Shown: positions 594 to 53,175 of the stretch, piece by piece
Numbering within the stretch: position 1 is the first letter of the stretch
Layout of the letters: every line of letters begins with the position of its first letter
From: Eubacteriaceae bacterium
GTDB taxonomy: Bacteria; Bacillota; Clostridia; Eubacteriales; Anaerofustaceae
Direction: 5' to 3'
Length of the DNA: 64,000 bases
NCBI GenBank assembly: GCA_009782875.1
Contig: WRIE01000005.1
Coordinates: 1-64,000, forward strand
Notes under the pieces: generated by a model
What the model was told of the DNA's origin: nothing
The model's input: the letters and a program-made list of their open reading frames with translations, nothing else
Databases searched by the model: none
Position numbers and translations under genes: made by a program

Positions 594-622
594 TCGACAA
601 AGCTTTGGACTCATGATATAAT
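594..622 (+). promoter_or_regulatory. Candidate sigma-A promoter, distal
   Basis: TCGACA (594-599) and TATAAT (617-622) are separated by 17 bp. Transcription from here would give a leader of about 265 nt before the start at 894. Confidence 0.45.
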
Positions 623-893: not shown

Positions 894-1856
894 ATGAGCA
901 TTGATAACCAAGCGGCAGTACAAATTTTTTACAGAATGATGAGGGCCCGGCTCTTTGAGCAGGAAGTTTACCGGATTAAGGAGGCTGGCATAGCCTCAGG
1001 GCCATTGTTTTTGTCAATTGGCCAAGAAGCTACTATCGCTGCAGTCATGGCGTTGAATCCCCAAGACATTGTGCTTGCCTCCCACAGGAACTTCCATGTC
1101 ATGATAGGCGCAGAAGTCGGCATAGAGAAAATCTTCAAAGAGTTGATTGGCGACCCTGACGGGGTCTGCGGTGGAAAGGGAGGCTGCTTCTCCTCAGCGG
1201 ACAACTCTGTCAACTTTTACGGGTCATCAGCTTTGCCCCAAAACCAATTTGGCAAAGCAGTGGGCATAGCGCTTTCAATCAAGCTCCAATCGAAGAGCAA
1301 CAATGTGGCGTGTTTTGCAGGGGACGGGGCAAGCGCAGACGGCGCTTTCTTTGAAGCCCTCAACGCCGCATGCCTGAACAAGCTGCCATTAGTATTTTTT
1401 ATTGAGAACAACTGTTATGCAGGCTCAAACAAGACATCAGAAATTATCAACATCAAAGACATTGCCAACCGCTCTTTCTCTTTTGACATACCAGGCATTA
1501 TAACTGACGGCAACGACGCAGTCGCAGTGTATGAAGCAATGCAACAGGCATTGGATTACGCCAAATCCAACAGCTCCCCGGTTATAGTCGAGTCAAAGAC
1601 CTATAGGCTTTCAGGTTATACCACTGACGACAATAACTCATATAGGGACGACTCGGAGATCAAGGATTGGCTGGAATACGACTCAATTGATATTCTATCC
1701 CGTTACCTCGTTCAAAACGGGATCGGCATTGCAGATGATTTGATGGTGATGCGAGAAAAAATTGAGTCTGAGATGCGCATGCAAGCAGACCAGATTATCG
1801 CATATAGCTCTAGAAAACGTAATAATTTTAATTTCATGGACGGAGTTGTCAGGTAG
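894..1856 (+). CDS. Pyruvate/acetoin dehydrogenase E1 alpha-like protein, active-site His residues replaced
   Basis: 320 aa with the fold of the thiamine-diphosphate (ThDP) E1 alpha subunit of 2-oxoacid dehydrogenase complexes. The Mg-ThDP motif is present: GDG at residues 143-145, then a run ending in ENN at 171-173. SIGQEA (41-46) and TYR (236-238) also match the family. However, the KGGSMH loop reads KGGCFS (95-100) and the YRxxGHS loop reads YRLSGYT (237-243), so both conserved active-site His positions appear lost. I chose the ATG at 894 because GGAGG lies at 881-885; an upstream in-frame TTG at 852 has no such site. The E1 beta-like gene follows after 2 bp, so the genes are surely cotranscribed. 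Fold assignment is firm; whether the protein still binds ThDP or acts as an enzyme is open. Confidence 0.85.
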   Translation: MSIDNQAAVQIFYRMMRARLFEQEVYRIKEAGIASGPLFLSIGQEATIAAVMALNPQDIVLASHRNFHVMIGAEVGIEKIFKELIGDPDGVCGGKGGCFSSADNSVNFYGSSALPQNQFGKAVGIALSIKLQSKSNNVACFAGDGASADGAFFEALNAACLNKLPLVFFIENNCYAGSNKTSEIINIKDIANRSFSFDIPGIITDGNDAVAVYEAMQQALDYAKSNSSPVIVESKTYRLSGYTTDDNNSYRDDSEIKDWLEYDSIDILSRYLVQNGIGIADDLMVMREKIESEMRMQADQIIAYSSRKRNNFNFMDGVVR

Positions 1857-1858
1857 TT

Positions 1859-2800
1859 ATGGCAGTTAAAACATACAAACAAGCCATTGAGGAAGCAATT
1901 GCTGAAAGTATGGCTATTGACGGGGCAGTAGTAGTCTTGGGAGCCCGGGGGCTGGATTTCCCTGAAGTCTACCGCTCCAGGGTGTTGGATATGCCCATAG
2001 GCAGCAACATAGCCCCTTCCGCATCCCTTGGGCTTGCCATGACAGGGGCAAACCCGGTTTTGTTCCTGAAAGGGGAGCATATGCTCCGGTATTTGGATGT
2101 GATAGGCAACGAGATATCAGTCATAGAGTCCATGTACAACTCCCAATTTGACTCAGGCATGGTTATCATCCTGGATATCGGATATTTGCCCCAGACAGGG
2201 CCGCAGCTTTCCCAGTCTTTTGAGTCAGTTTTTCTGCAGTTCCCGGGATTGACGGTGGTCTATCCCTCAAACGCATCTGACGCGAAAGCCCTTTTGATGT
2301 CCTCAATCAGGCTTAAAAAGCCGGTGATTTTCTTGTTGAACAAGTCCTTGATGGATACTTCAAGCGACATTGCAGACAATCCCATCCCAGTCGGCAAGTC
2401 AAAAGTTGTGCTTGAAGGCAAGGACATTACGATCGTCGCCTATGGGGACATGGTCAATATGGCGCTACGCGCCTCAAGCTTGGCAGCTGAAAGCGGCCTC
2501 ATGTGCGAGGTCATCGACCTGATGACGATACACCCCATTGACATGGATCCTATTGTAGAGTCTATACAAAAGACTGGCAAAATAATGATAGTCCACGAAG
2601 CCCGCAAGACGGGGGGGATAGGCTCTGAGATCGCAGCCTTGATTGCGGAGAGCGAAGCTCTCTTTTTCCTCGACTCAAAAGTTATGAGGGTAACTAGCAA
2701 GGACGTAGACATCCCCTACAACAGAAATGACTATTTCAAAACCGTGCCAAATGAGGAAGACATCTTGAAGGCGATAATCCAGCTAAGCACAGGTGAATAA
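1859..2800 (+). CDS. Pyruvate/acetoin dehydrogenase E1 beta-like protein, catalytic Glu and His replaced
   Basis: 313 aa, with the transketolase pyrimidine-binding domain (about 1-180) followed by the C-terminal transketolase domain (about 190-310), as in E1 beta subunits. Family landmarks include RVLDMPI (41-47), FPGLTVVYPSNASDAK, and the C-terminal EVIDL and VHEARKTGGIGSE segments. The usual PISE motif, whose Glu activates the ThDP aminopyrimidine, reads PIGS (46-49), and the usual HSQS motif reads LSQS (117-120). The loss of both, alongside the alpha subunit changes, argues that the heterotetramer no longer performs the standard decarboxylation. It starts 2 bp after the alpha gene and ends 2 bp before the E2-like gene. 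The paralogous family is large, but E1 beta is the clear best match by eye. Confidence 0.85.
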   Translation: MAVKTYKQAIEEAIAESMAIDGAVVVLGARGLDFPEVYRSRVLDMPIGSNIAPSASLGLAMTGANPVLFLKGEHMLRYLDVIGNEISVIESMYNSQFDSGMVIILDIGYLPQTGPQLSQSFESVFLQFPGLTVVYPSNASDAKALLMSSIRLKKPVIFLLNKSLMDTSSDIADNPIPVGKSKVVLEGKDITIVAYGDMVNMALRASSLAAESGLMCEVIDLMTIHPIDMDPIVESIQKTGKIMIVHEARKTGGIGSEIAALIAESEALFFLDSKVMRVTSKDVDIPYNRNDYFKTVPNEEDILKAIIQLSTGE

Positions 2801-2802
2801 AA

Positions 2803-4968
2803 ATGATTAAAAATATGGCTTCCCCTGCCGCCCGGAAGGTGGCGAGGGAAATTGGGCTCGATTTGGATTTGGTGGCTTCTGCTACTCCCGGTTCCTTAGT
2901 CCAGCTTGAGGACGTGTTAAAAACCGCCCAGGAGCAAGGCATCGATATTCAAAGCTACTTGAGCCGCCCAAAGCCTGAAACAGCAAAAGCACAAACTGAA
3001 ATCGATTCGATTGCGCAAATGCAAGCTGAAAAAGAAGCATCAGCTGCTTTTGCCATACAAACGAGCATACCAGTCCCAAATGTCACAAAACCCCAGCCTG
3101 CAATCATTCCAGCCCCAATCAACGTGATAAGGGAAACGCCCCCAGCCCCTCCAATCCAGCAGGAGAAAGATGACAAGCCTCTCTTTGATTATGACTATAT
3201 TGAGAATGTGAACTTGTTTGAGAGCATGCTGGATGAAGTAGAGCAAAAGTCAAAAGAAGAAGCCAATGTGAATCCCAATACTATCACAGAGCTCAAAGAC
3301 AAGATCGCCCGGGATGTGGTCAGTGACGAGGACTTTGAGCGCAATCTCTCTGTGATCATAGAAGACGAGCTAAGCGATATGGGTTCTTCCACCAGCGGGG
3401 ATGGCGAGGATAAGCCCAGCCAAGGAGACTCCATCAAATTGGGAGAAGATGGCTTTGGTTTCACCCAAAGCTCTGGAAAACCTGGGGAAGAACCAGAAGA
3501 AAATGATGGCGAAGACGAAGACGGGCAAATCGTTGACACTGTTTTTGTCGAAGCCGCCATCCAAGAGATGGACGACATTGTCGATGATAACGCGGAGTCT
3601 TTGGATATAATCCTGGATATTGCGCCTGATGACCTCCAAATCGATATAACAGAAGAAGTTGAAGGGCATAGCAGCGAGGACGCCATGGTTCTCAGTGATG
3701 ATGATATATTCGATATAATTGATGGCCAGCTTGAACAGGAAGCGCTTGGACAAGAGGCGTTGCCCGAAGAAGAGCCTGAAGAGGAAGCCAAGCCAGTCCT
3801 GGATTTTGGCAGCTTCAGGTTTGGCCGCTTTGATGAGACTATTGTAGGAAAACACACTGAAGATACAGAACCCCCTAAACCTGAAGATATAAATGCCCTG
3901 GATGATATTATCATGGACTCCATCATTGAAGATGAAGAAGATGGCGGGGAAGACGATGGGGAAGACGTGGAGGGGGCTGGAAATGAAGAAGAAACCGCAG
4001 CCGACGATGTAGTTGTGCCTGAAACCAAAGAAGAAGAGCCCGCAGGCAAAGATGATGCCCATGGGGATGGTTCCATCGCCCAAGATCAAGATAGCGGGCA
4101 GGGCAAGGCTGTGGAAGAGGGCGCAAACGGAAAGCCAGTTGCCCAAGCCCCTGCCCCAAGCAAGTTCTGGCATGACATCGCCACATTGCCGTTGCGCGAT
4201 GAGATTATCGCTGACCGGGACAAGTTCCAAGCAGCTGCCGAGCCACAGAATAGCGACGCCAGCGGGGATATCGAAGATAGCGAGGTTATCGATGCTGTTG
4301 TAGAAGAAACCCGCAGCGAAGTTTTTGAATACCCGTCCCAAAAGGCGCCAGTGCGCAATAAGGGGATGCAGAACTACACAGTCCTCAAGGATGAAAACAC
4401 CCAAGAGCCTCTGCCTCAATATAGCGGGCAAATAGCCGCCTTCGAGTATGACCCCGCAATGTTTGACTACGACACCCAAGTATCCGCAAAGCCTTTGATG
4501 GCAGCCAGGATCAAGGTTGAGGACAGCGCTGTGATAGATCTGTTGGCCCAATTTAAAATTGGCTACAGGATCGGCATTATCAAGACAATAATCAAAGCAT
4601 GCTCCTTTGCGCTTGATAAAATCTCCTTGCCTAATGCAAACACAATCGGTGTTGTGGATGCCCACGAAAACTTCGATGTGTATGTAGTTGATGATATCCA
4701 AAATTCGTCTATACAACAGATGATGTTTTCTTCAGTGGCAAATATCGACACGTCCAAGGTGCTCGTTTCCGTTTGGGATTTGATCTCATGCAGGCTTGAA
4801 AGCTTTTCTGCCTCAAACATAGACGGGATAAACATATTTGTCCACCATAACGACAGCGTTCTGCTATTAGAGCTGGCATCCCAAGAGAGGCTGCTCGATC
4901 CTTTCAAAGCCATCCAGTTCATGGAGACAGTAAGAGATTTCCTAGAGAGGCCTAACCGCTATCTATAA
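2803..4968 (+). CDS. E2-like scaffold: subunit-binding domain, long acidic linker, catalytically dead acyltransferase domain
   Basis: 721 aa, unusual architecture. Residues about 5-42 (ASPAARKVAREIGLDLDLV, then LEDVLK) resemble the peripheral subunit-binding domain of E2 proteins, though the usual GRI is not preserved. Residues about 110-500 form a very acidic, Glu/Asp/Gly-rich, probably disordered region. The C-terminal 190 residues resemble a shortened 2-oxoacid dehydrogenase acyltransferase domain: IIKACSFALDKISLPNA matches the FLIKAxALALKxxPxLNA region, and the end VRDFLERPNRYL matches the usual LxxLLExPxxLL. The acyltransferase signature DHRxxDG reads QERLLDP (694-700), so the catalytic His is Glu. 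No lipoyl domain or lipoylation DKA motif is seen. It is last in the operon with the E1-like pair. I infer a structural or binding role; the C-terminal match is by eye and only moderately secure. Confidence 0.65.
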   Translation: MIKNMASPAARKVAREIGLDLDLVASATPGSLVQLEDVLKTAQEQGIDIQSYLSRPKPETAKAQTEIDSIAQMQAEKEASAAFAIQTSIPVPNVTKPQPAIIPAPINVIRETPPAPPIQQEKDDKPLFDYDYIENVNLFESMLDEVEQKSKEEANVNPNTITELKDKIARDVVSDEDFERNLSVIIEDELSDMGSSTSGDGEDKPSQGDSIKLGEDGFGFTQSSGKPGEEPEENDGEDEDGQIVDTVFVEAAIQEMDDIVDDNAESLDIILDIAPDDLQIDITEEVEGHSSEDAMVLSDDDIFDIIDGQLEQEALGQEALPEEEPEEEAKPVLDFGSFRFGRFDETIVGKHTEDTEPPKPEDINALDDIIMDSIIEDEEDGGEDDGEDVEGAGNEEETAADDVVVPETKEEEPAGKDDAHGDGSIAQDQDSGQGKAVEEGANGKPVAQAPAPSKFWHDIATLPLRDEIIADRDKFQAAAEPQNSDASGDIEDSEVIDAVVEETRSEVFEYPSQKAPVRNKGMQNYTVLKDENTQEPLPQYSGQIAAFEYDPAMFDYDTQVSAKPLMAARIKVEDSAVIDLLAQFKIGYRIGIIKTIIKACSFALDKISLPNANTIGVVDAHENFDVYVVDDIQNSSIQQMMFSSVANIDTSKVLVSVWDLISCRLESFSASNIDGINIFVHHNDSVLLLELASQERLLDPFKAIQFMETVRDFLERPNRYL

Positions 4969-4982
4969 GGCAGTAAATTTGC

Positions 4983-5038
4983 AAATTCTATACAAGTAAA
5001 GCGCATTGCTTGCAGTGCGCTTTACTTGTATAGAATTT
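4983..5038. terminator. Perfect 23-bp inverted repeat after the E1/E2-like operon
   Basis: Arms 4983-5005 and 5016-5038 are exact complements around a 10-nt loop. It begins 14 bp after the stop of the E2-like gene. The T-tract is short (TTT near 5036), so termination is likely but not textbook. Confidence 0.7.
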
Positions 5039-5169
5039 CTGCCAATGCCATCAACAAGAACCGCCAGCTTTGCAAGTGAGAGCCGAAAAGTTAAAAGGTT
5101 ATCTAATTTGAAGAATAACCTTGTATAGCTCTTTAGGCTCCATGTGCTCTGCGAGCCCGCTGCTTGCCT

Positions 5170-5672
5170 CGGATTTTTGGCAATCAGGTAAGCGACCTGA
5201 CACCACTTAATAGTTTATGAAACCTTGCCTTCTTGTTTATTATCGGCAATCCAATAGCAAGCCTGGCTCAAATCGAAGGCATGAGTAGTTTAATAGGTTT
5301 TGCATTGAGCGACACAGCAAGCGACTATCTTGCAATCAACAATCTTCCAAATTAACATATTACGGCGACCAAATCAGCGATATAGCGAAGTTGTCGAAGA
5401 TAACGAACCTTAAGTTGGGCAAGGTTCTAGATATAACACCGCTTAGCGCATTGACAAACTAAGACTATTTAGGCTTGAGCGATAAATCGATAAGCGATCT
5501 GAAACCGCTTAGTGGAATGACAAACCTGACGGGTTTAAATTTGAGATGCAACGCGATAGACAATTTGGCTGCGCTTCACGGACTTGCGAAATTAAAAACA
5601 TTACATATATGGCAACGCTGTAGGCAATAGGGAAATTGCCGACTTCAAGGCTGCCGTCCGGAGGGTGAAGTA
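5170..5672 (+). pseudogene. Decayed internalin-like leucine-rich-repeat gene
   Basis: Reading the plus strand in shifting frames gives repeated LRR units of the internalin type: NQVSDLTPLNSL then NLAFL (from 5182), NPIASLAQIEGMSSL (from 5248), DQISDIAKLSKITNLKLG then DITPLSALTN (from about 5369), and SISDLKPLSGMTNLTGLNL (from about 5485), ending near 5672. Stop codons and frame changes interrupt it several times, for example TGA at 5218, so it cannot make a full protein. No signal peptide or start was found. It was probably a surface LRR protein. It lies between the E1-like operon terminator and pth. Confidence 0.75.
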
Positions 5673-5902
5673 AACTATGAGTAACCACACCGTAGGGGCT
5701 GTTGCGCAAACAAAGTATAGCAGCCCAAAAAAAGCGCGGCAACATCAAAAAGGCTTCCTTGCAAGGGCATACTCGCCTGCCAAGGATCCTTTCTTTGTAT
5801 ACAAAAGAAGCATTCACCCAGCCTCGCCCCTTTCCATAGCTACTGGCACAAACCCAATGCCCGCAAAGCGCCTTCCAGCCTTTTTGCCAGGCTTTGCCCA
5901 TG

Positions 5903-23404: not shown

Positions 23405-24814
23405 TTAAGCTTGTGTAGCTTGGCGTGCAGCGATCTCTTCTTTCATCTGTGCGATGCTCTTGTCTGTGATCCGCACAAAGAACAGGATTACAAGCCCTGT
23501 AAGTATGTAGCCGCCAGCTGGGACAAGTAGCGAGAGCACAGACAAGCTGCTTTTCAATTGGGGTGTCGGATCCATGTTTGCCTGGTAGCCGATGGCGCTA
23601 AGCGCTGCGGCGACTGCAACTCCTCGGACCAAGCTGCCCAATTTTAGCGGGAACGTTTGAAGGCCGATGATGAAGCCTTTGACATCCTTGCCAGTGTTGT
23701 ATTCGCCAACCACTGCCAAGTCGGAGTAGTAGGACTGTTTTGTGATGTTGATGAAGGTCAAAAGGAATGCTGACAATAGGCTGCATGCGACGAATGCCCA
23801 AATGTTGCCGACAGTCAGGTACCTTAAAATGTACGCCCCTGCGCATCCAAAGCATCCAATCAGCATCAAAGTCCTTGTGGGGAGTTTTTTAGCCAGCATC
23901 GGGGCGACGAATGAGGAGGCTATCGTTGACACTGACATTGCAGTCATGGTAACGGACATCATCGCCATGTTTTCAACCACGTATTTGAACAAATAAGCTG
24001 TTGTGCCAGTATACATGAAGTTGGCCATAAATGAGCCAAAATCCCCGACTAGGAAAGCAAGGAATTGCGGGTTTGCCGCCAGGTTTTTGACTAAGTCCCC
24101 CGCAGAGGTTTTCTCTTTTGGCGCTGCAGCTTTCGCAGCCTCGGTTTTCGGCGCAGCTTCTTCCTCATAGCCTTTCGACAAGAAGAAGTGCGTGAAATAG
24201 CCGAGGCACATGCAAGATGCCCCTGTGAACATTGTCGCAGTGTATCCGGCAATTTCGTTATTAAATATCCTCTGGTAGAAAGCCAACAATGCGACGTTGC
24301 TTGCAGACCATATAAATTGCCCAATGCCTGTGAAAGTTGTTCTTCTTGAGAAGAGCAAAACCCTCTCTTGCGGGGTTGGCGCCATGTAGGACATCAATGC
24401 AAGGTTTGCGGTCCATGGCAGGTTCATTACCAGCCTCGCAGCGCAACTCCACGCGATGATAAAGGCCGCATTGAATACTGGTGTGCCGATTTTCACATAC
24501 TGCATTGGGTAGACAAGCAGCACAAACGGTGTAGTCAATATCAGCCAGGTACGGTATTTGCCAAACCTCATTGGTTTGACGAGCTCGATGATTGCGCCAT
24601 AAAATGCGGACAATGCAAAATCCAAAAATGAAGGGATTGTAGAGCAAAGCGCCACATAGCTAAGTGGCAGCTGTAGAGCGTCGGTGAGGAAGATGGTCAA
24701 GTAAGTGCCTCCGACTTGGGTCATTAGTGTGAACCCCATGTCCCCGATACCCCAGATAGTTTTGATAGCATTGCTTAAGGGCTTTTTCTCGCTTACTGCT
24801 GTTTGTGTTGACAT
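23405..24814 (-). CDS. GPH-family cation:sugar symporter (MelB-like), copy 1
   Basis: 469 aa, about twelve membrane helices. The N-terminal half shows FLDFALSAFYGAIIELVKPM followed by RFGKYRTWLI, which matches the D(x)nGxxxDxxxxxxGxxRxW region of glycoside-pentoside-hexuronide symporters such as MelB. The first acidic residue of the helix pair is present. A cytoplasmic Ala/Glu/Lys-rich loop (about 215-240) separates the halves. The ATG at 24814 has AGGAGG just before it. The substrate cannot be told; no glycosidase is nearby. It is about 94 percent identical to copy 2 (about 27 differences counted by eye). Confidence 0.85.
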   Translation of the reverse strand: MSTQTAVSEKKPLSNAIKTIWGIGDMGFTLMTQVGGTYLTIFLTDALQLPLSYVALCSTIPSFLDFALSAFYGAIIELVKPMRFGKYRTWLILTTPFVLLVYPMQYVKIGTPVFNAAFIIAWSCAARLVMNLPWTANLALMSYMAPTPQERVLLFSRRTTFTGIGQFIWSASNVALLAFYQRIFNNEIAGYTATMFTGASCMCLGYFTHFFLSKGYEEEAAPKTEAAKAAAPKEKTSAGDLVKNLAANPQFLAFLVGDFGSFMANFMYTGTTAYLFKYVVENMAMMSVTMTAMSVSTIASSFVAPMLAKKLPTRTLMLIGCFGCAGAYILRYLTVGNIWAFVACSLLSAFLLTFINITKQSYYSDLAVVGEYNTGKDVKGFIIGLQTFPLKLGSLVRGVAVAAALSAIGYQANMDPTPQLKSSLSVLSLLVPAGGYILTGLVILFFVRITDKSIAQMKEEIAARQATQA

Positions 24815-25138
24815 AATTCCTCCTGTCAATCAATTTTTTTTGTTCAAAAAGCCTTTTACAAAATTTGGGTATTAGTATGGTTGTGCAGGTTGTCTATGTT
24901 TAAATGCCCTTAAGGCAAGGGCAGATTTTTAGTTATGGGATATTTTTATTTCAAACCAAAATCCCTTATCCTTATTTTATGAGGTTAGATTAATTAAATC
25001 AAGTGTAATTTAAAACACAATCAAAGAACATTCAAACTCAGATTTTTGTTTGGATAGATTAGCCAAACCGGCTACTAAAACATTCCATTTTTTTGCCTCC
25101 TTCCTGGTCTGGGAAAAAGATAAATTATTGAAAATCAT

Positions 25139-25243: not shown

Positions 25244-26653
25244 CTAAGCTTGTGTAGCTTGGCGTGCAGCAATCTCTTCTTTCATCTGTGCGATGCTCTT
25301 GTCTGTGATCCGCACAAAGAACAGAATTACAAGCCCTGTAAGTATGTAGCCGCAAGCTGGTACAAGTAGCGAAAGCACAGACAAGCTGCTTTTCAATTGG
25401 GGTGTTGGATCCATGTTGGCCTGGTAGCCGATAGCGCTAAGCGCTGCGGCGACTGCAATTCCTCGGACCAAGCCGCCCAGTTTAAGCGGGAATGTTTGAA
25501 GGCCGATGATGAAGCCTTTGACATCCTTGCCAGTGTTGTATTCGCCAACCACTGCCAAGTCGGAGTAGTAGGACTGTTTTGTGATGTTGATGAAGGTCAA
25601 AAGGAAAGCTGACAATAGGCTGCATGCGACGAATGCCCAAATGTTGTTGACAGTCAGGTATCTTAGAACGTACGCCCCGGCGCATCCGAAGCATCCAATC
25701 AGCATCAAAGTCCTTGTGGGAAGTTTTTTTGCCAGCTCTGGAGCGATGAATGAGGACACAATAGTTGACACTGACATTGCAGTCATTGTAACTGACATCA
25801 TCGCCATGTTTTCAACCACGTACTTGAACAAATAAGCTGTTGTGCCTTGATACAAGAAGTTAGCCATGAACGAGCCAAAATCCCCGACTAGGAAAGCTAG
25901 GAATTGCGGGTTTGCCGCCAGGTTTTTGACCAAGTCCCCCGCAGAGGTTTTCTCTTTTGGCGCGGCAGCTTTCGCAGCCTCGGTTTTCGGGGCAGCCTCT
26001 TCCTCATAGCCTTTCGACAAGAAGAAGTGCGTGAAATAGCCTAGGCACATGCAAGCCGCTCCTGTGAACATTGTCGCCGTGTATCCTGCAACTTCGCTTT
26101 TGAGCAATTTCTGGTAGAATGCAAGCATTGCGACGTTGCTAGCAGACCATATGAACTGCCCTACGCCTGTGAAGGTGGTTCTTCTTGAGAAGAGCAAAAC
26201 CCTCTCTTGCGGGGTTGGCGCCATGTAGGACATCAATGCGAGGTTGGCGGTCCATGGCAGGTTCATTACCAGCCTCGCGGCGCAACTCCATGAAATGATA
26301 AAGGCTGCATTGAATACCGGTGAGCCGATTTTCACATATTGCATCGGGTAGACAAGCAGCACAAACGGAGTCGTCAATATCAGCCAGGTACGGTATTTGC
26401 CAAACCTCATTGGCTTGACGAGCTCGATGATTGCGCCATAAAATGCGGACAATGCAAAATCTAGAACTGAAGGGATAGTTGAGCAAAGAGCCACATAGCT
26501 AAGAGGCAGCTGCAGAGTGTCGGTAAGGAAGATGGTCAAGTAAGTGCCTCCGACTTGGGTCATCAACGAAAACCCCATGTCTCCGACACCCCAGAAAGTT
26601 TTGATAGCTCTGCTTAAGGGCTTTTTCTCGCTTACTGCTGTTTGTGTTGACAT
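25244..26653 (-). CDS. GPH-family cation:sugar symporter (MelB-like), copy 2
   Basis: 469 aa, paralogue of 23405-24814 with the same start context (AGGAGG, AATT, ATG). Most substitutions are conservative. The densest difference is FYQKLLKSEVAGY here against FYQRIFNNEIAGY in copy 1 (about residues 175-187), an extramembrane loop. The C-terminal helix differs at one Cys/Gly. Both copies have intact frames, so selection has kept both, for dosage or for slightly different substrates. Each copy has its own terminator, so they are probably separate transcripts. Confidence 0.85.
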   Translation of the reverse strand: MSTQTAVSEKKPLSRAIKTFWGVGDMGFSLMTQVGGTYLTIFLTDTLQLPLSYVALCSTIPSVLDFALSAFYGAIIELVKPMRFGKYRTWLILTTPFVLLVYPMQYVKIGSPVFNAAFIISWSCAARLVMNLPWTANLALMSYMAPTPQERVLLFSRRTTFTGVGQFIWSASNVAMLAFYQKLLKSEVAGYTATMFTGAACMCLGYFTHFFLSKGYEEEAAPKTEAAKAAAPKEKTSAGDLVKNLAANPQFLAFLVGDFGSFMANFLYQGTTAYLFKYVVENMAMMSVTMTAMSVSTIVSSFIAPELAKKLPTRTLMLIGCFGCAGAYVLRYLTVNNIWAFVACSLLSAFLLTFINITKQSYYSDLAVVGEYNTGKDVKGFIIGLQTFPLKLGGLVRGIAVAAALSAIGYQANMDPTPQLKSSLSVLSLLVPACGYILTGLVILFFVRITDKSIAQMKEEIAARQATQA

Positions 26654-27071
26654 AATTCCTCCTGTCAATCAATTTTTTTTGATCATAAAAGTTTTGGAAA
26701 AAAATTATGGGTATTTAGTGCGGTTGTGCAGATGATCTATGCTTGAATGCCTGCAGCAAGGGCATTTTTTAGTTATAGTTTGAGTTATAGAATATTTTCA
26801 TTTCAAACCAATAATCCTAACCTTATTGTAAGAGTTTATATAAACTAAATCAAGTATAATTTAAAATACAATCAAAGTTCGTTCAAACTTGTGGACAAGG
26901 ATTCGTAGCGAAAACACAAATGGGAAATGAAGGCCATCGCTGCTTTGCAGCCAGCTTTTGCACAAAAAACCATTGCCACAATTTCCAAATGCAAAGTGCG
27001 CATTTACAGATATCAAAAAAAAGACGAGAGCAGGCATCCAGCCGGCTCTCAATAAATATGCGGTATATCTG

Positions 27072-43904: not shown

Positions 43905-46900
43905 TCAAAGCTTCTCTTCCAACATGCCTTCAGATTCAACTAAAATGTTGCAGAGTTTTTGGATTGTGTCTTCATCAGCGTTCCACATGCCGCGCTGTAT
44001 AGCCTCAAGCAGCCGCTCAGTGATCGCATACATTGCCCATGGATTGGCTTCATTGATCCAATCGCGCATTTCTTCGTCAAACACGAAGTTTTTCGTGATT
44101 TCATCGTACATCCAATCCTGGATATTATCGCTAGTCGCGTCCCAGCCGAAGACATAGTCGACCATTGAGGAGATTTCCTGGGCGCCTTTGTATCCATGCC
44201 TTTTCAAGCCTTCCCGCCATTTTGGGTTGTTTATGCGCGAGCGCATGACCCGGGCAGTCTCTTCTTGCAGTGTCACAGTTTGCACATGTTCCATATCGGA
44301 GCTGTCAGACGCGTAGGAGTTTGGCTTTTGCCCGCTTGATGACCGTACTGCGGCGATAAGCCCGCCACGGTAGATGAAGTCGTCATCTGTGTCAAACATG
44401 TCAAGCTCGACAGAAGAGATGTTGTTTATGGTCACCGTTGTCTTGGAAAGGCAATTGCGCAGCTCGTCCTGGAACAATTCACCATGCAGCTTCCGGCCGT
44501 ATGCATGGGCGCTCCACCTGATATATATATTTGCCAAATCCTCTGGGCTGCTCCATTGTTTGCTGTTTATCAGAATATCTACACCTGCCCCGTAGCCGCC
44601 TGGAGGGCATCCGAATATTCTTGCATGAGCGCGCTCATACGCCTGCTCATGGTCTTTGCCCTCTGCTATCATGCGCTCCATTTCCTCGTCGATATGCTTG
44701 CGCACGTAGTTTTGGCTATGGGGCTCGTCAAGCGCAGCAACCAAGTTTACAGCGTCCTCAAGCCGTTCGATCATATTTGGAAACATGTCGCGGAACAACC
44801 CAGTTATTCGCAGAACAACGTCAATGCGCGGCCGCCCCAGCTCATCGAGGCCAATAGCCTCCATGCCGATAACCCTGTCGGTATTGCCTAGCCAAACAGG
44901 CCTGGCTCCTAAGAGATACAGCGCCTCAGCCAAATCCTCGCCGCTTGTCTTCAATGTGTTGCCGCCATAGATCACTGTCGCAACAGACTCCGGGTAAACC
45001 CCTGAGGCCTCGAGCTCGCGCTCCAGCATTTGCTTGGCGCATTGCGCCCCGACAAGCCATGCGGTCCGCGACGGCATGGCGCCAGGGTCCATCGCATAGA
45101 AATTGCGCCCTGTCGGAAGTATCGAAGCGTTTCCGCGGCTTGGGTTCCCAGAAGGGCCTGGAGGTATGAAACCGCCATTTGCGCCTGAAGCAAAGTTGCC
45201 TAATTCATCTCCCATGCGGCGCAAATCCCTGGCTATTTGACCACAGACGTACATGAGGCACTCGGCCAGCTTGCCCCTCGGCGCCAGCTCGCGCGCAGCG
45301 TCGACATCGAAATTTTTTTCCAAAAGCGCCGCGAAGATTTGCCTTCCCTCTTCATCGACATCCTCCAATAGCATGCGCTTTGTCCTCCCATTTGGCAGAA
45401 CATCCCTAGCGTTCTCAATCAGGTCGTCCAAGTCCAAGCCGCGCATTTCACATATTGCCTCCCGCAAAGAAGGGACAATCCCGTTCTTTACGCGCACAAG
45501 CAGCCTGCATAGGTTGGAGAACAGCTCCCCTTCTGGCACTTGGCCCAGAATATGAAGCCCGTCGCGCACCTGGGACTCCTTTATCCGGCTTATCCACAAA
45601 TGCAGCTTCTCGATAAAATCATCCATGCCGCCGCTTTCTTCCGAGGGCATCTCCAAGATGCCAAGGTCCTGGTCGAGGTTTAGCTTGCAGGCAAGCTCCC
45701 ATATTTGCCCATACAGCACCGGAAGGTTCTGCGGCGCGGCATTGCGCGCATGGTAGTAATCCTCAATAAGCTCATCCATCTCAGCCAGCTCGCCATATGT
45801 CCCGCCTTCAACCATCGAAGGAACCATATGCCCAATGAGGGCGGCATAGCTTCGCCGCTTGGCTTGCATCCCTTCGCCGGTGACGGCCACGTTGTACACA
45901 TAGAGGTGGGGCAGCGCCCCTATCGACAAATCCGGGTAGCAAGCGTCTGAAAGCCCGATCTCTTTACCAGGAAGCCATTCAAGTGTCCCATGGGTGCCCA
46001 CGTGCACAATAGCGTCAGCTTTGAATACATGCTCTATCCACTTGTAGAAGGCGATGTATTGGTGGGGGCATACGATATCAGTGCTGTGGTAGCTCTCCTC
46101 GGCTTTTTCCTCATGGGCGCGTGGCGGTTGCAAACCAATGAACACGTTGCCATTTAGTATGCCAGGTATTAGCAATTTGCCATCGGCAGCCATAAATGTT
46201 CCGGGCGCCTCCCCCCAATCATCTGTCATCTTGGCTTGGACACCCGCATCGAAAGAGCTAAACCAGCTCTCATACAAGCTTTCGCCAACCGTGTCGCAAG
46301 CAAGCTCAAGCATTTTTTCCTCTGGCAGCCAACGCCCGTCATTTGTCAGCCCGTCAATAATCCGCTCGATAATGTCCTTGCCATCCTCAAAAGGAGACTG
46401 CATATAAATGCCCTCTTTCTCGAGCTGGCTAAGCATGTTGTAAACCGAGGCTGGCGTGTCCAGCTGGTGGGCGCAGCCTATGGTGTCGTTTCGCGGCGGC
46501 GAGTTGTGGAGGATTACAGCAATTTTTTTCTCTGCGGGCGGGATTTTGTGCAAACGCGCCCAGTTGCAAGCCAGCCTGCTGATTTTCTCTATGCGTTCGG
46601 GGATTGGCATGCAAATGCTGCGCATGCCGTAGGGAGTCTGTTCCACTTCTTTGACACTTATCGGAAAGGTAATAATTTGGCCGTCATATTCCGGCTCATA
46701 CACGCAAACCCCCAACATCATCGCATCGATGCCGCGCAAGGAGCTTTTCCACTGCTCATAGTCATACCAGGTATGCATCGCTTTCAAGACGGGCACTGAT
46801 GTCAATTCGAAAACGCTCTGCTCGACTCTCGGGGCACTGCCGTCGGAAGGGCTGGAGAGCACGCTGGCGGAAAAGCCTATAGTGTTGATTATCGCGTCTA

Positions 46901-47639
46901 TTGCAGGTTTGCCTCCATCAGTAAAGTAATGGCGCAAGGCTTCGTCGAAATCGAGGGCGCCGGCAGATCCTGAGGGGGCAAGGTTGGTCACGAGCACGAC
47001 AGGTTGCGCGCCAATGGAAAGCAGCGTGTCGTGCAGCATATCTATTGCCCCCATGTCATTTTTGCGCAGCTGGCTTTCATGGACAAGCACGCCGATCCGG
47101 GGGCTGGAGGCTGCCCTGGCAGCTTTCAAATAATCATCCTCATTTGAGACGGGCCCTGCCGGCTCATATAGGCATTGCCATTTTGAAAAAACTGGACCAG
47201 GCGCTTCAAATGGCGCATTAGTGAATTCAGCGGCGATATAAAGCGCCATTGACACATAATTCTCGACTCCCCCAGCCTTTATGTAGCTGTCAATTAACGC
47301 ATACTGCAATGGGCTGATGCCCATATCCCCCATCAGCTCCGACATTTCCTGCTCGACGCCGCATAGAATGAACATTTTCTTTGTGCCCGAAAGGGTTTTA
47401 AGCAGCTTGTCGAAGAAATTGACATAGGTTAGGCTGCCATGGATGTCAATCATGAGCAAGTCGCTTTCAAGCGAGGCTTGTATAAATTCGCCATATAGCT
47501 CGTCGCTTTGGCCAATCTCTGTGCATTCAAAATACTTCAAATCAAAAGCGCCGGGATGCATGCTTGCCAATTGTTCGCTGAATTCGCCGAAAAATGCGGC
47601 ATCAACAGACATCTGCGCTAAATACACTATTCGTGTCAT
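43905..47639 (-). CDS. cobN: CobN/magnesium-chelatase subunit H-like protein
   Basis: 1244 aa, the size of CobN/BchH/ChlH large chelatase subunits, which bind the tetrapyrrole and its metal. Family signatures are HVGTHGTLEWLPGKEIGLSDACYPDL, NVAVTGEGMQAKRRSYAALIGHM, GCPPGGYGAGVDILINS, and the C-terminal WDATSDNIQDWMYDEITKNFVFDEEMRDWINEANPWAM. AAGGAG lies 9 nt before the ATG at 47639. It follows the riboswitch-controlled binding lipoprotein after 161 bp, probably in the same transcript. No CobS/CobT or ChlD/ChlI-like AAA+ partner occurs in the window, so metal insertion by the standard complex cannot be assumed. Cobalt for cobamides is inferred from the riboswitch. Confidence 0.88.
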   Translation of the reverse strand: MTRIVYLAQMSVDAAFFGEFSEQLASMHPGAFDLKYFECTEIGQSDELYGEFIQASLESDLLMIDIHGSLTYVNFFDKLLKTLSGTKKMFILCGVEQEMSELMGDMGISPLQYALIDSYIKAGGVENYVSMALYIAAEFTNAPFEAPGPVFSKWQCLYEPAGPVSNEDDYLKAARAASSPRIGVLVHESQLRKNDMGAIDMLHDTLLSIGAQPVVLVTNLAPSGSAGALDFDEALRHYFTDGGKPAIDAIINTIGFSASVLSSPSDGSAPRVEQSVFELTSVPVLKAMHTWYDYEQWKSSLRGIDAMMLGVCVYEPEYDGQIITFPISVKEVEQTPYGMRSICMPIPERIEKISRLACNWARLHKIPPAEKKIAVILHNSPPRNDTIGCAHQLDTPASVYNMLSQLEKEGIYMQSPFEDGKDIIERIIDGLTNDGRWLPEEKMLELACDTVGESLYESWFSSFDAGVQAKMTDDWGEAPGTFMAADGKLLIPGILNGNVFIGLQPPRAHEEKAEESYHSTDIVCPHQYIAFYKWIEHVFKADAIVHVGTHGTLEWLPGKEIGLSDACYPDLSIGALPHLYVYNVAVTGEGMQAKRRSYAALIGHMVPSMVEGGTYGELAEMDELIEDYYHARNAAPQNLPVLYGQIWELACKLNLDQDLGILEMPSEESGGMDDFIEKLHLWISRIKESQVRDGLHILGQVPEGELFSNLCRLLVRVKNGIVPSLREAICEMRGLDLDDLIENARDVLPNGRTKRMLLEDVDEEGRQIFAALLEKNFDVDAARELAPRGKLAECLMYVCGQIARDLRRMGDELGNFASGANGGFIPPGPSGNPSRGNASILPTGRNFYAMDPGAMPSRTAWLVGAQCAKQMLERELEASGVYPESVATVIYGGNTLKTSGEDLAEALYLLGARPVWLGNTDRVIGMEAIGLDELGRPRIDVVLRITGLFRDMFPNMIERLEDAVNLVAALDEPHSQNYVRKHIDEEMERMIAEGKDHEQAYERAHARIFGCPPGGYGAGVDILINSKQWSSPEDLANIYIRWSAHAYGRKLHGELFQDELRNCLSKTTVTINNISSVELDMFDTDDDFIYRGGLIAAVRSSSGQKPNSYASDSSDMEHVQTVTLQEETARVMRSRINNPKWREGLKRHGYKGAQEISSMVDYVFGWDATSDNIQDWMYDEITKNFVFDEEMRDWINEANPWAMYAITERLLEAIQRGMWNADEDTIQKLCNILVESEGMLEEKL

Positions 47640-47800
47640 TAAAAACAACTCCTTTATTGTTTAGCCGCCATTCCTTTAAGGAAAAAAGGCGTGTTGGCCA
47701 AAAGGGATTTTTAGCTCTTGGGCATACTGTATTTCTTAGCTGGCATACCTGTGCTATCGCAGGAGACGCATTTTTTTACCCGCTTTCCTTTGCCTTGCGA

Positions 47801-48928
47801 TTACTCGGCAAGGGGATGGTAGTGGAAAGGCTCACGCCCCGGAAAAAGGCCGGGATGGAATATTGCAGCCAAATCCAGCACTTGGTCGGCAAGCTGGTCT
47901 GTAAAGTACCAGTATCCCACATGGAATTGCCAAATCTTTTTGTCGACAACCACTTGGGAATCCTCCAGCACAGGCACCATCGCCAATAGCGCATTGTAGT
48001 TGGCGACAGAGTTTTCGTTCATTGACAAAATCCATAAATCAGCGTTGGCCAAGGTGTCGAAAAACTCCTCAAAGCTTAGCTGCCCCGGGGTTTCGTGCAA
48101 GAACTCGCCACCGGCAGCGCGGACCTGGTTAGCCACAAAAGAGTCTGGCCCGGAAACATAGACAGTGCCTTGGTAAATCGAGCCATAAGCGATTTTTGGC
48201 TTGTCCACAACATTGGCAATAACCGCGTTCATTTCATCGAGTTTGGCAAATTGCTCGCTAACGTACTTGACCGCCTCATCGTCTATGCCAAAAAATGGCG
48301 CGAAAAAAAGCTGCCATTCCATGCGCCCCTCATGTCTTGCCTCCATGTACTCGTTGTTTACGGCATAAGGAATGCCAAGGCTCTCAAGCATTGCAATAAG
48401 CTCTGTTAGGGCTGATGTGCCTGTATACACAAACACCAAATCTGGGTTAATAAGCTGCATAAGCTCGTAATCTGGGGCGCTCCAGCTTCCAAGATACTTG
48501 ATGTCGCAGCCGGATTCAGCAATGTCTTTATCCATTTCCGGATTTGTGCCTTGCGCGCTGGTTATGCCAGCCACACAATCCCAAACATCGAAAGGCGCTA
48601 TCATCCCGACATGCGTTGTAGAGCCAAACACAGCTTTTTGCAAGGGGATTGCCAGTACTGTCATATCCTCATAGCCGGAAGGCGCTTCCTGCCCTCTCGG
48701 CACAAGCAAAAACTTCTGGTTTTCCGCGTCAGTAACGATTTTGACGCCATTCTCCAAATATTCTACCGAAAACCCCGTGGCGTATTTTAGCTCCATAAAT
48801 GAGCTTTCAGGAGCGCGCCCATCCCCCTCCGGCTTTGCGCTGCCGCTTCCTGTGTTGTTGCATGCTGCGATTAGCGCAAAAGCGAAGATTGCGGCAGCGG
48901 CAAACACTGCTTGGTGTTTCTTTTTCAT
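47801..48928 (-). CDS. BtuF/FepB-like ABC substrate-binding lipoprotein under a cobalamin riboswitch
   Basis: 375 aa. Signal peptide with lipobox LIAAC (Cys at 23). It belongs to the periplasmic-binding-like fold of type III that binds cobalamin, siderophores or haem: GMIAPFDVWDCVAGITSAQ, KYLGSWSAPDYELMQLINPDLVFVYTG, and a long linking helix around KYVSEQFAKLDEMNAVIANV. AAGGAGA lies 9 nt before the ATG at 48928; the longer frame to 49054 runs through the riboswitch terminator. No permease or ATPase gene is adjacent. The ligand is inferred to be a corrinoid, cobalt chelate or related metallophore from the riboswitch and the CobN-like neighbour. Confidence 0.85.
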   Translation of the reverse strand: MKKKHQAVFAAAAIFAFALIAACNNTGSGSAKPEGDGRAPESSFMELKYATGFSVEYLENGVKIVTDAENQKFLLVPRGQEAPSGYEDMTVLAIPLQKAVFGSTTHVGMIAPFDVWDCVAGITSAQGTNPEMDKDIAESGCDIKYLGSWSAPDYELMQLINPDLVFVYTGTSALTELIAMLESLGIPYAVNNEYMEARHEGRMEWQLFFAPFFGIDDEAVKYVSEQFAKLDEMNAVIANVVDKPKIAYGSIYQGTVYVSGPDSFVANQVRAAGGEFLHETPGQLSFEEFFDTLANADLWILSMNENSVANYNALLAMVPVLEDSQVVVDKKIWQFHVGYWYFTDQLADQVLDLAAIFHPGLFPGREPFHYHPLAE

Positions 48929-49007
48929 TATGATTTCTCTCCTTGTGTTTGATTGCCTGTCCGTTTGGTAAAAATAAACTGGTTTGAATACGGCAGCCAC
49001 GCTGCCA

Positions 49008-49048
49008 CAAAAAAGAAACACGCCTCTAACTGGGCTTAGAGGCGTGTT
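49008..49048 (-). terminator. Expression-platform terminator of cobalamin riboswitch A
   Basis: On the minus strand AACACGCCTCTAA pairs with TTAGAGGCGTGTT (49048-49036 with 49029-49017) and is followed by a T-rich run. It lies between the aptamer and the lipoprotein start, as expected for control by termination. Confidence 0.9.
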
Positions 49049-49112
49049 TGCCATGACACGTTATCCATCACGCTACCTCCTCTATCACTCGTAGAATCAG
49101 ATTTGCACAAAA

Positions 49113-50435: not shown

Positions 50436-51356
50436 TCAATCCCAATCAAGCTCCGGATGTATAAATTTGGCAAGGATCTCCAAACCTTCGACAAACCGCG
50501 GGCCTGGGCGGGCTATTATATCAGCTTCAGGATCAGTGAACCCAACATAGTACACATTGCCTTCAACAAAAGCTGTGATCGACTCAAATCCTGCTGGCAT
50601 CACGAAGTAGTCTTGGTCGAAGAGGCAGATGTACACTTCAGGGTCTCTTTCGACAACAACCTCAGCAGATAGCTGGGGCGAGGAGTACTCATACTCGTAA
50701 GCAATATTGTCCCCTTTCAACAATCCAAGGGCGTTTCCAAGGATGTCTTTCTTGCTTGAAGAGTATAAATCCATAACATCAAGGAAAACCCTTTTGGAAG
50801 GCACGCCTTCAAGCTTTGCTTGGAGCGCGGCCAAATCCCATTCCAGCTTTTCTACCAGAGCCTGCGCTTCGCTATCGTGGCCAGTGATTTTGCCAAACTC
50901 CAAAATAGAAGCGTATATGTCATCCACTGTCTCATAGAGGGTCGTGTAAACAGGTATGCCTGCTTGCTCAAGGGCTGCCAAGTGGTCTCCGCCAAACACT
51001 CCCGATGTGACAACCAAGTCTGCCCCGAGCTCTATGATGCGCTCAATGTTAGCAGTGCTGCTGTCTCCAACCGTCTCCAAGGCATCTGTTGCCTGGGGGT
51101 AGTTGCACCATAAGCTTTTTGCGACAATTTTATCGCCGGCGCCAATGGCGAAAAGCGATTCAGTTGTGTTGGGGCTCATCGAAACGATGTTCATCGGCTC
51201 TTTTTCAAAAGTGATGGATATTCCCATGCTGTCTACAACCGTCATGGGGAAAGCTCCTTCTTGTCCCTGGCTACCTTGCTGGCTTGAAGGCTTGGAGCAT
51301 GCAGCTAGCGCAACAAGCATAATAAGCGCAAGCAGTAGCTTTGGCGTTTTCTTCAT
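50436..51356 (-). CDS. BtuF-like ABC substrate-binding lipoprotein under a second cobalamin riboswitch
   Basis: 306 aa. Signal peptide with lipobox ALAAC (Cys at 20). The mature part shows the BtuF/FecB pattern: VVDSMGISITFEKEPMNIVS, PNTTESLFAIGAGDKIVAKS, ERIIELGADLVVTSG, and ITGHDSEAQALVEKLEWDL in the connecting helix. The C-terminus FVEGLEILAKFIHPE is typical. GAGGGA lies before the ATG. A cobalamin riboswitch with terminator stands immediately upstream. It is different in sequence from the lipoprotein at 47801, so the cell has two separate B12-responsive binding proteins, with permease and ATPase encoded elsewhere. Confidence 0.9.
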   Translation of the reverse strand: MKKTPKLLLALIMLVALAACSKPSSQQGSQGQEGAFPMTVVDSMGISITFEKEPMNIVSMSPNTTESLFAIGAGDKIVAKSLWCNYPQATDALETVGDSSTANIERIIELGADLVVTSGVFGGDHLAALEQAGIPVYTTLYETVDDIYASILEFGKITGHDSEAQALVEKLEWDLAALQAKLEGVPSKRVFLDVMDLYSSSKKDILGNALGLLKGDNIAYEYEYSSPQLSAEVVVERDPEVYICLFDQDYFVMPAGFESITAFVEGNVYYVGFTDPEADIIARPGPRFVEGLEILAKFIHPELDWD

Positions 51357-51993: not shown

Positions 51994-53175
51994 CTACTTC
52001 CTTGATAATTCGTCAGCTAGCTCGTAAACTGCGCGGATAACTTCTGGGGTCGCATCCCCTCCGCATAATAGGGGCTTGTTCTGCAAGAAGATGAAGCCGC
52101 CTCCGGGAGCGAATGTGTCAAAACACTTTTTCACATAGTCTTTGCACTTCTCAATGCTGCCCATGCGCAGCAAGTCGGCAGTGATCCCTGCCCCAATCGA
52201 GCACCAATCGCCGATTTGCTTATGGACTTCAAACGGGTCGTCCTCGTCAAGCATAAAGACTACAGACCCTTGTGGAAGTTGGCGGTAGCGGTCCAGGGTA
52301 TTGAGGAATTGCCCCTCTCCCTTGATCCAGAACTTGACGCCGGCTTCCATAAACGGCATGCAAGCATCCCTGAAGTCGTTGAAGAAATACTTGTCGAAAA
52401 GCGGCGGCGACAAAAAGCACTCGCTATGGTATGTGGCAGAGCCAAGGGGGTGGGGTTTGCCTATGTAATCCTTGACATCATATGGGAAGCTTTTGGTTGC
52501 CTTGATCGCAGCGCAAGCTGCGTCAACCAGCTCTGGGCGCCTTCTCAAGTCTGAGAGTGTTGCTGGTATGCCCCTCAAATGGTCAAAGAGGGTATTGAGG
52601 TTTGAGCCGAATCTGACCGAGGTAGAGTCGGTCAAATTGAGTATCCCCCTCTCTTCAAATATGTTGTTGGTTATGCGCCTATTTGTGTTTGTGAATACTT
52701 TGAAGATTGACGCTGCTTTTTTCAATGACTCGTAAGCCTCGTCGGGACTGTCGACATTCAATGCGGGGAAGTTGCGCTTGACCCATTCGTCAGAAGCGAA
52801 ATTTTCAAGGTCGTCAATGATTTTCGGGTATTCTTCAGCTGCGATAAAACTCAGCTCTCCTTGGGCGTGCTGCAGGGTCGTGCCGTCCCTGGCAATCACG
52901 TAAGACTTTGATCCCAACGTTTCGTGCATGCGGACGGAATGGCTGATGCCCGGGCTCATTGCTATGTAGTCAAGGGGCACATCATCGAGGAAGGCAATAT
53001 ACTCCTCCACAGTCCTGTCAGGGTCGTCGATGACATCAAGGTATGTGCCACCGCGGTATGTGAGGGGCCACATGATGACTTCAGCGCCGACAGGCACCTT
53101 TTTTGGCTCTTTGAAGCTGATAGCGTCAACGAAGTTTTGTTTTCGCTGTTCTTTCAAATCAAGGGTTTGATCCAT
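51994..53175 (-). CDS. Uroporphyrinogen decarboxylase-family protein, possible corrinoid methyltransferase
   Basis: 393 aa of the URO-D/MtaA barrel superfamily. Recognisable parts are NFVDAISFKEPKKVPVGAEV at the start, the central HLRGIPATLSDLRRRPELVDAA, and the C-terminal stretch GAGITADLLRMGSIEKCKDYVKKC then FAPGGGFIF, where UroD-like methyltransferases have GNVDPxxLLxxGTPExV and GxxxxxGC. The length exceeds true HemE, and no haem genes are adjacent, so a corrinoid- or cofactor-dependent methyl transfer role is more likely than haem synthesis. GGAGGGA lies 5 nt before the ATG. The gene sits directly upstream of riboswitch B on the same strand. Confidence 0.8.
   Translation of the reverse strand: MDQTLDLKEQRKQNFVDAISFKEPKKVPVGAEVIMWPLTYRGGTYLDVIDDPDRTVEEYIAFLDDVPLDYIAMSPGISHSVRMHETLGSKSYVIARDGTTLQHAQGELSFIAAEEYPKIIDDLENFASDEWVKRNFPALNVDSPDEAYESLKKAASIFKVFTNTNRRITNNIFEERGILNLTDSTSVRFGSNLNTLFDHLRGIPATLSDLRRRPELVDAACAAIKATKSFPYDVKDYIGKPHPLGSATYHSECFLSPPLFDKYFFNDFRDACMPFMEAGVKFWIKGEGQFLNTLDRYRQLPQGSVVFMLDEDDPFEVHKQIGDWCSIGAGITADLLRMGSIEKCKDYVKKCFDTFAPGGGFIFLQNKPLLCGGDATPEVIRAVYELADELSRK

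Follow-up and report, generated by a model that had tools for sequence, protein, structure and literature searches.

The window, that is, the whole 64,000-nucleotide stretch of DNA analysed here, comes from a 3.19-Mb draft genome that is 92% complete (G000) and carries near its start three plus-strand genes, all with open frames, which encode degenerate counterparts of the E1-alpha, E1-beta and E2 subunits of a 2-oxoacid dehydrogenase complex and follow one another at a spacing of 2 bp between alpha and beta and again 2 bp between beta and the E2-like gene (hereafter pseudo-E1-alpha, pseudo-E1-beta and pseudo-E2, together the pseudo set). An initial annotation had described the two E1 frames as clean and 2 bp apart, and so they are (894-1856 and 1859-2800). 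The features of the locus are as follows.

594..622, plus strand: promoter-like site (TCGACA, 17 nt, TATAAT, TG extended), about 270 bp upstream of the operon
894..1856, plus strand: pseudo-E1-alpha, 320 aa; Pfam E1_dh 176 bits; E1-alpha chains of the PDB matched at E 3e-32
1092..1094, plus strand: Phe67 (alpha), at the second His of (T/S)HRxH in intact homologues; His lost in 12 of 12 full-length orthologues
1191..1193, plus strand: Ser100 (alpha), replacing the GGSMH His; loss in 13 of 13 orthologues
1320..1412, plus strand: GDG (143-145) to ENN (171-173), alpha; intact Mg/ThDP diphosphate motif, kept in at least 11 of 12 orthologues
1617..1619, plus strand: Tyr242 (alpha), replacing the GHS His; loss in 8 of 13 orthologues
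1859..2800, plus strand: pseudo-E1-beta, 313 aa; Pfam Transketolase_C 111 bits, Transket_pyr 46 bits
2003..2005, plus strand: Ser49 (beta), replacing the ThDP-activating Glu (PISE to PIGS); loss in 8 of 13 orthologues
2207..2209, plus strand: Leu117 (beta), replacing the HSQS His; loss in 13 of 13 orthologues
2803..4968, plus strand: pseudo-E2, 721 aa, with PSBD, acidic linker and E2-core-like domain
2818..2922, plus strand: PSBD (E3_binding) of pseudo-E2; PF02817 25.4 bits, cut-off 23.7, aa 6-26
2947..4431, plus strand: acidic linker of pseudo-E2; low-complexity, 495 aa, 27% Asp+Glu, net charge -98
4450..4965, plus strand: degenerate E2 catalytic-core domain; profile match, HxxxDG absent
4983..5043, plus strand: 26-bp hairpin directly 3' of pseudo-E2; dG -44.7 kcal/mol, z -9.1

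For alpha, the ATG at 894 is preferred over an alternative upstream start, TTG 852, because a GGAGG, found by eye, precedes it at 881-885. The promoter-like site comes from a consensus scan only (11 of 12 matches), in a region that totals 12 such sites against 7.5 expected. The hairpin is a possible transcript end, its role as a terminator being putative because it comes without a T run; the suggestion that its 4991-5030 portion is a repeat was rejected, as within the window it matched only itself and its own palindrome, with no second copy. No E3 gene was seen in the pseudo-E1/E2 cluster. Further downstream, at about 5150-5690, broken frames resemble by eye a decayed leucine-rich-repeat gene.

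In a working E1 the beta Glu activates ThDP, and the His of the alpha GHS and beta HSQS motifs serve reductive acylation. The title of PDB entry 1ols, for one, assigns one His each from the alpha and beta chains of the branched-chain enzyme to this latter step. When pseudo-E1-alpha is aligned with human E1-alpha from the PDB, GKGGSMHM becomes GKGGCFSS and YRYHGHS becomes YRLSGYT; when pseudo-E1-beta is aligned with its Bacillus stearothermophilus counterpart, RVFDTPLAES becomes RVLDMPIGSN and HSDS becomes LSQS. The altered motifs singled out in the initial annotation (KGGCFS, YRLSGYT, PIGS and LSQS) are thus present and occupy the usual positions relative to solved structures, with Ser, Tyr, Ser and Leu where the catalytic His and Glu belong, and its statement that the GDG...NN Mg-ThDP motif survives is likewise correct (GDG...ENN). 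By descent the two proteins belong to the E1 family, having adjacent E1_dh and transketolase-type folds (with Pfam scores far exceeding the cut-offs) and the GDG...NN motif, while the residues of a working E1, namely the activating Glu (Ser49 here) and the His for reductive acylation (Tyr242 and Leu117 here), are absent. The fold is preserved: the AF2 model of beta (pLDDT 86.0) superimposes on human E1-beta with a VIA Z of 43.0, at 1.4 A over 312 residues. Natural ThDP enzymes that lack the Glu do exist (glyoxylate carboligase), so that Ser49 on its own is no proof of inactivity.

How selective is the loss? It goes beyond noise. Taking as conserved those columns on which at least 95% of 33 intact homologues agree, the window alpha retains 45 of 54 E1-alpha columns, including R65, G143-D144-G145 and N172-N173; the nine that it has lost (residues 37, 39, 67, 98-100, 115, 242 and 243) cover the GGSMH and GHS motifs. 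The window beta retains 36 of 69. Across the 12 full-length pseudo-alpha members, residues 37, 67, 98, 99, 100, 115 and 243 are lost throughout, H67 and V115 being gone in every one, and at least 11 of these members retain R65, G143-G145, N172, N173 and Y175. Positions newly conserved in the pseudo set are confined to K14 and N66 in alpha and L59, I103 and A209 in beta; these do not outline a new pocket.

The third gene completes the picture of a degenerate complex. Its PSBD is present in all 12 pseudo-E2 orthologues scanned, a Pfam scan of which listed no E2 model for the C-terminal domain. When this domain was modelled from 12 orthologues (AF2 pLDDT 82.8, pTM 0.77), however, Foldseek ranked E2 catalytic cores first (E 2e-9), and VIA-align gave Z 17.7 against the human E2 core (163 aligned, rmsd 3.0) and Z 17.0 against the core of the human E3-binding protein. 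An E2-core fold and a PSBD are therefore both found, but HxxxDG is absent from 12 of 12 aligned C-terminal domains. Nor was a lipoyl domain seen in pseudo-E2; this by itself is no sign of decay, because the E2 of the family's intact set (see below) likewise has none, the lipoyl domain there being fused to the E3 gene. The linker varies from 165 to 495 aa across the family and is acidic in 11 of 13 members, and pseudo-E2 as a whole diverges fast, with a mean column identity of 25%. Its core profile finds matches in 5 of 391 genomes of the class, all within the Anaerofustis family. An acidic tail of 160-316 aa with 29-40% Asp+Glu also occurs on the pseudo-E1-alpha of G001-G003 and G005 (L040, L041, L042, L044).

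A first scan of genome contigs with the window beta found no relative. An E1-alpha orthologue is nevertheless encoded in all 13 Anaerofustis-family genomes (that of G009 in two pieces at contig ends, for which reason G009 is omitted from the tree and the column counts), E1-beta and pseudo-E2 follow it in each, and all 12 sets listed have open frames and tight gene order; the pseudo-E2 of G005 is cut short by the contig end and does not figure in two of the comparisons (A3 and A5). As the genomes are mostly drafts, with a completeness of 84% for G005, 79% for G008 and 86% for G009, the absence of a gene from any single one counts for little. IspD lies directly upstream of the pseudo set in nine of the 13 (G001-G009); in G000 and G010-G012 the best IspD match is elsewhere and scores below the family cut-off. 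At L038, a 587-aa flavoprotein upstream of IspD scores weakly as E3 (89 bits) and is not treated as one here.

In a tree built from E1-alpha and beta together (645 columns, 55 taxa) the pseudo set is monophyletic (UFBoot 100) and its branching order resembles that of the intact paralogue; branches within the clade are long, and its deep nodes have UFBoot values of 70 and 79. These comparisons place the pseudo set, by all appearances, in the common ancestor of the Anaerofustis family, from which it would have been inherited vertically. The active-site losses are not uniform, however. Both the beta Glu and the GHS His are kept in five of the 13 genomes (G001, G002, G003, G005 and G012); in the other eight the Glu has become Ser, Lys, Asp, Asp, Ser, Gly, Ile and Ile, and the GHS His is gone in the same eight, a paired loss that needs about three events on the tree, subject to the low support of its deep nodes (70 and 79). 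The initial claim that every key catalytic residue has been lost is thus accurate for the window proteins and too broad for the family. Selection can be gauged from G002 versus G003, since for every other pair dS of the pseudo genes is near or beyond saturation. Here dN/dS is 0.050 for alpha, 0.012 for beta and 0.051 for E2 in the pseudo set, compared with 0.012, 0 and 0.032 in the intact set. Values of 0.012-0.051 speak against decay in progress, as had been surmised at the outset, and for purifying selection acting on proteins whose active site is disrupted.

A second E1 pair, with GGSMH, GHS, PIS/TE and HSQ, was extracted from 11 of 13 family genomes (none from G005 and G009), and pseudo and intact E1-alpha can be aligned over 274 columns. 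Beside this intact pair in G000 and G012 (L033 3417-4730, G000:C82; L054 3578-5053, G012:C7) lies a gene for a lipoyl domain plus an E3-like part without the redox motif CxxxxC, and the intact-set E2 of G000 reads HIHLNG. Owing to these departures, the intact sets of G000 and G012 may not be complete oxidative complexes unless another E3 exists.

Erosion extends beyond the family. For the E1 motif table, loci were taken in 20 of the 40 genomes that make up family f3, in all 6 of f2, all 3 of f4 and 3 of the 5 of f5, and E1 motifs are also eroded in 10 of the 20 f3 genomes (G038, G039 and G049-G056), which the tree splits into two separate groups (G038/G039 and G049 to G056). G046, G047, G057 and G058 have an intact E1 and have lost the E2 and E3 motifs, the E2/E3 status of f3 genomes having been assigned by scripted motif searches. 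Judged by such motifs, erosion of the E1/E2/E3 cluster is recurrent, and E2 and E3 seem to erode first. In many related genomes of the order the E1 pair adjoins IspD. The f3 sets L154, L155, L162, L167 and L156-L161 are IspD-linked, L160 lying too near a contig end to tell; in L154-L162 and L167 the E2, where found, is without HxxxDG and the E3 without CxxxxC, E1 being intact in some and eroded in others.

What, then, could a complex stripped of its usual chemistry be kept for? The reading that we favour, with somewhat better than even confidence, is that the operon encodes a whole pseudo 2-oxoacid dehydrogenase complex (E1-alpha, E1-beta and E2) that acts as a ThDP-binding scaffold or regulator rather than as an oxidative decarboxylase. 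A retained pseudo-enzyme accounts best for the kept fold, the family-wide conservation and the purifying selection. The initial annotation had already proposed a kept pseudo-E1; what it did not include is that the unit also comprises a degenerate E2 and that the Glu and the GHS His survive in five of 13 orthologues. As befits a pseudoenzyme, the orthologues are conserved under purifying selection, and loss of catalysis is predicted from the replaced residues. Pseudo-E1 would still form heterotetramers and dock on the PSBD of pseudo-E2, whose core domain would trimerise or build a cage and whose acidic linkers would provide flexible arms. It is the combination of such an assembly with the lost chemistry that points to a ThDP-binding scaffold or regulator and away from oxidative decarboxylation. 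The likeliest partner or target would be the motif-intact E1 paralogue; the two could have subunits or the PSBD dock in common.

It is conceivable, though in our estimate a good deal less probable, that only the residues for passing on the acyl group have been lost and that the pseudo set is a ThDP carboligase or non-oxidative decarboxylase, which still makes hydroxyethyl-ThDP or joins it to an acceptor. The ThDP/Mg residues are indeed kept, acyl transfer would be pointless with an E2 that lacks its catalytic His, and the related genera represented by G046, G047, G057 and G058 offer a parallel in keeping E1 intact with E2/E3 motifs lost. In the species of the five orthologues out of 13 that retain Glu and GHS His together, a pure scaffold is a poorer fit than a ThDP enzyme, and the ancestor may thus have been capable of ThDP chemistry, though not of acyl transfer. 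Such a role is hard to reconcile, however, with the eight of 13 members, the window included, in which the GHS His is missing and the Glu position holds Ser, Lys, Asp, Ile or Gly, with the disappearance of the GGSMH His, the HSQS His, H67 and V115 from 12 of 12 full-length members, and with newly conserved residues that outline no new pocket.

A special case of the scaffold reading, less probable again, is that the pseudo set is a decoy or regulator that mixes with the intact E1 paralogue, either in mixed heterotetramers or by competing for E2. It draws on the presence of that paralogue in 11 of 13 family genomes, the PSBD retained in pseudo-E2 and the alignability of the two E1-alphas over 274 columns, but pseudo alpha and beta are always co-encoded, which favours a heterotetramer of their own. 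As to ordinary pseudogenes in slow decay, the fast divergence of pseudo-E2 and the long branches of the tree might be so explained; this is very improbable all the same, and we reject it on dN/dS (0.012-0.051) and gene order (12 of 12 sets listed, all with open frames), to which may be added that the ThDP motif is kept while active-site residues go.

The pseudo set can be compared with several known systems. Mitochondrial protein X, which has a lipoyl domain and works alongside an active E1 and E2, keeps an E2-core fold for assembly without acyl transfer. With the E1 heterotetramers of the pyruvate and branched-chain 2-oxoacid dehydrogenases (1ni4, 1w85, 1ols), the window set shares the two-gene alpha/beta architecture, the beta fold (Z 43.0) and GDG...NN; it differs in that the GGSMH, GHS and HSQS His and the PISE Glu are all replaced. 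Like the dihydrolipoyl acyltransferases (8piu, 4n72), pseudo-E2 runs from a PSBD through a linker to an E2-core fold, but it has no HxxxDG, no lipoyl domain that we could see and a linker of 165-495 aa, which is acidic in 11 of 13 members. The E3-binding protein, that is, protein X (6h60), the mitochondrial pseudo-E2, resembles it in core fold (Z 17.0), the difference being that here E1-alpha, E1-beta and E2 are all degenerate and encoded together. Literature searches for a pseudo-E1 or degenerate complexes returned nothing on point. Pseudo-enzymes, and a pseudo-E2 in protein X, are already known; it is the joint degeneration of all three subunits that seems to be new, and we know of no other case in which E1-alpha, E1-beta and E2 are all chemically dead and yet kept together across a bacterial family. 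This suggests that a family of gut bacteria uses the frame of the complex for something other than the usual reaction, and it makes the pseudo set a clean case in which to learn what a metabolic mega-complex is capable of as a frame alone, once its reaction has gone.

A side lead, on the function of intact E1 pairs in related genomes, comes from isoprenoid synthesis and may be the weightier result. Matches to TIGR00204, the model for DXP synthase (DXS), pass the cut-off in 22 of the order's 67 genomes and in none of the 13 of the Anaerofustis family, even though those to IspG do so in 65 of 67 and 13 of 13, respectively. Within the family, DXR is above cut-off in G000 and G009-G012 and is matched in part in G008, and DRL is above cut-off in G001-G007, exactly the other seven, so that all 13 have DXR or DRL. 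Since the MEP pathway is present without a recognised DXS, something must supply DXP. DXS has a related ThDP fold (VIA Z of beta up to 33.8), and the pseudo set adjoins IspD in nine of 13 genomes; in contrast to DXS, however, the activating Glu is absent in eight of 13, and the window proteins reach 23.1 (alpha) and 69.6 bits (beta) against TIGR00204, far from the cut-off of 465.95. That the window set is the DXS of G000 is unlikely because its Glu and acyl-transfer His are gone. A split transketolase-like pair at G000:C1, considered as a hidden DXS, is by eye of the transketolase type.

Could intact E1-type pairs do the work instead? An intact pair lies between IspD and IspF, with no E2 adjoining, in G059, G060, G062, G063, G064 and G066 (L144, L136, L164, L139, L163 and L175, some with a small ORF before IspF), and in G006 and G007 (L051, L055) it is the divergent neighbour of DRL; among these genomes a recognised DXS occurs in G064 alone. 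A full-length PF00198 match is missing in G060, G062, G063, G066, G004, G006 and G007, where hits are either small and weak or absent. PF00198-like proteins of about 270-300 aa (G004, G006, G007, G008, G062, G063, G066) were considered as hidden E2s and dismissed, for they carry DERxxDG or something near it instead of HxxxDG and, by eye, no PSBD. It is accordingly possible, if doubtful, that the MEP pathway of this order often runs without DXS, that E1-type pairs make DXP and that the window set is a degenerate paralogue kept as their scaffold or regulator. The enzyme would then be the intact pairs that stand alone next to IspD/IspF or DRL where the genome lacks a full E2, and in the species that keep the Glu the pseudo set could possibly be a second carboligase. 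Against this proposal, DXS and an IspD-linked pair occur together in G064, G059 encodes an E2 at another locus, and a full E2 is present in many of the genomes that lack DXS. Linkage to IspD had to be abandoned as a marker of DXS loss, as it is also found in DXS-bearing genomes (G019, G025, G035, G050-G054 and G064).

Published work bears on the same question: E. coli PDH E1 mutants make DXP (PMC3424233); the loss of DXS can be rescued by mutations that lie outside the MEP pathway (PMC13001223, which cites the work on mutant PDH E1); and Dxs is the only enzyme missing in 181 of 4,400 species, 172 of these being without a known mechanism (PMC10663253). For this published gap, MEP species without Dxs, the intact E1 pairs are a concrete candidate. 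Elsewhere in the order, at L178 (G036), L179 (G061) and L142 (G016), DRL lies near PTS-type genes, an RpiB-like gene or a sugar regulator together with a full E1-E2(-E3) set, which by eye looks like a catabolic operon for a branched polyol.

The remainder of the window holds, on the minus strand, tandem near-identical genes for a membrane transporter (23405-24829 and 25244-26668) and a gene for a protein of 1247 aa that by eye is CobN-like (43905-47648). The latter adjoins what appear by eye to be binding-protein-like genes (47801-49054 and 50436-51356), and the same neighbourhood includes a uroporphyrinogen decarboxylase-like gene, also recognised by eye, at 51994-53175.
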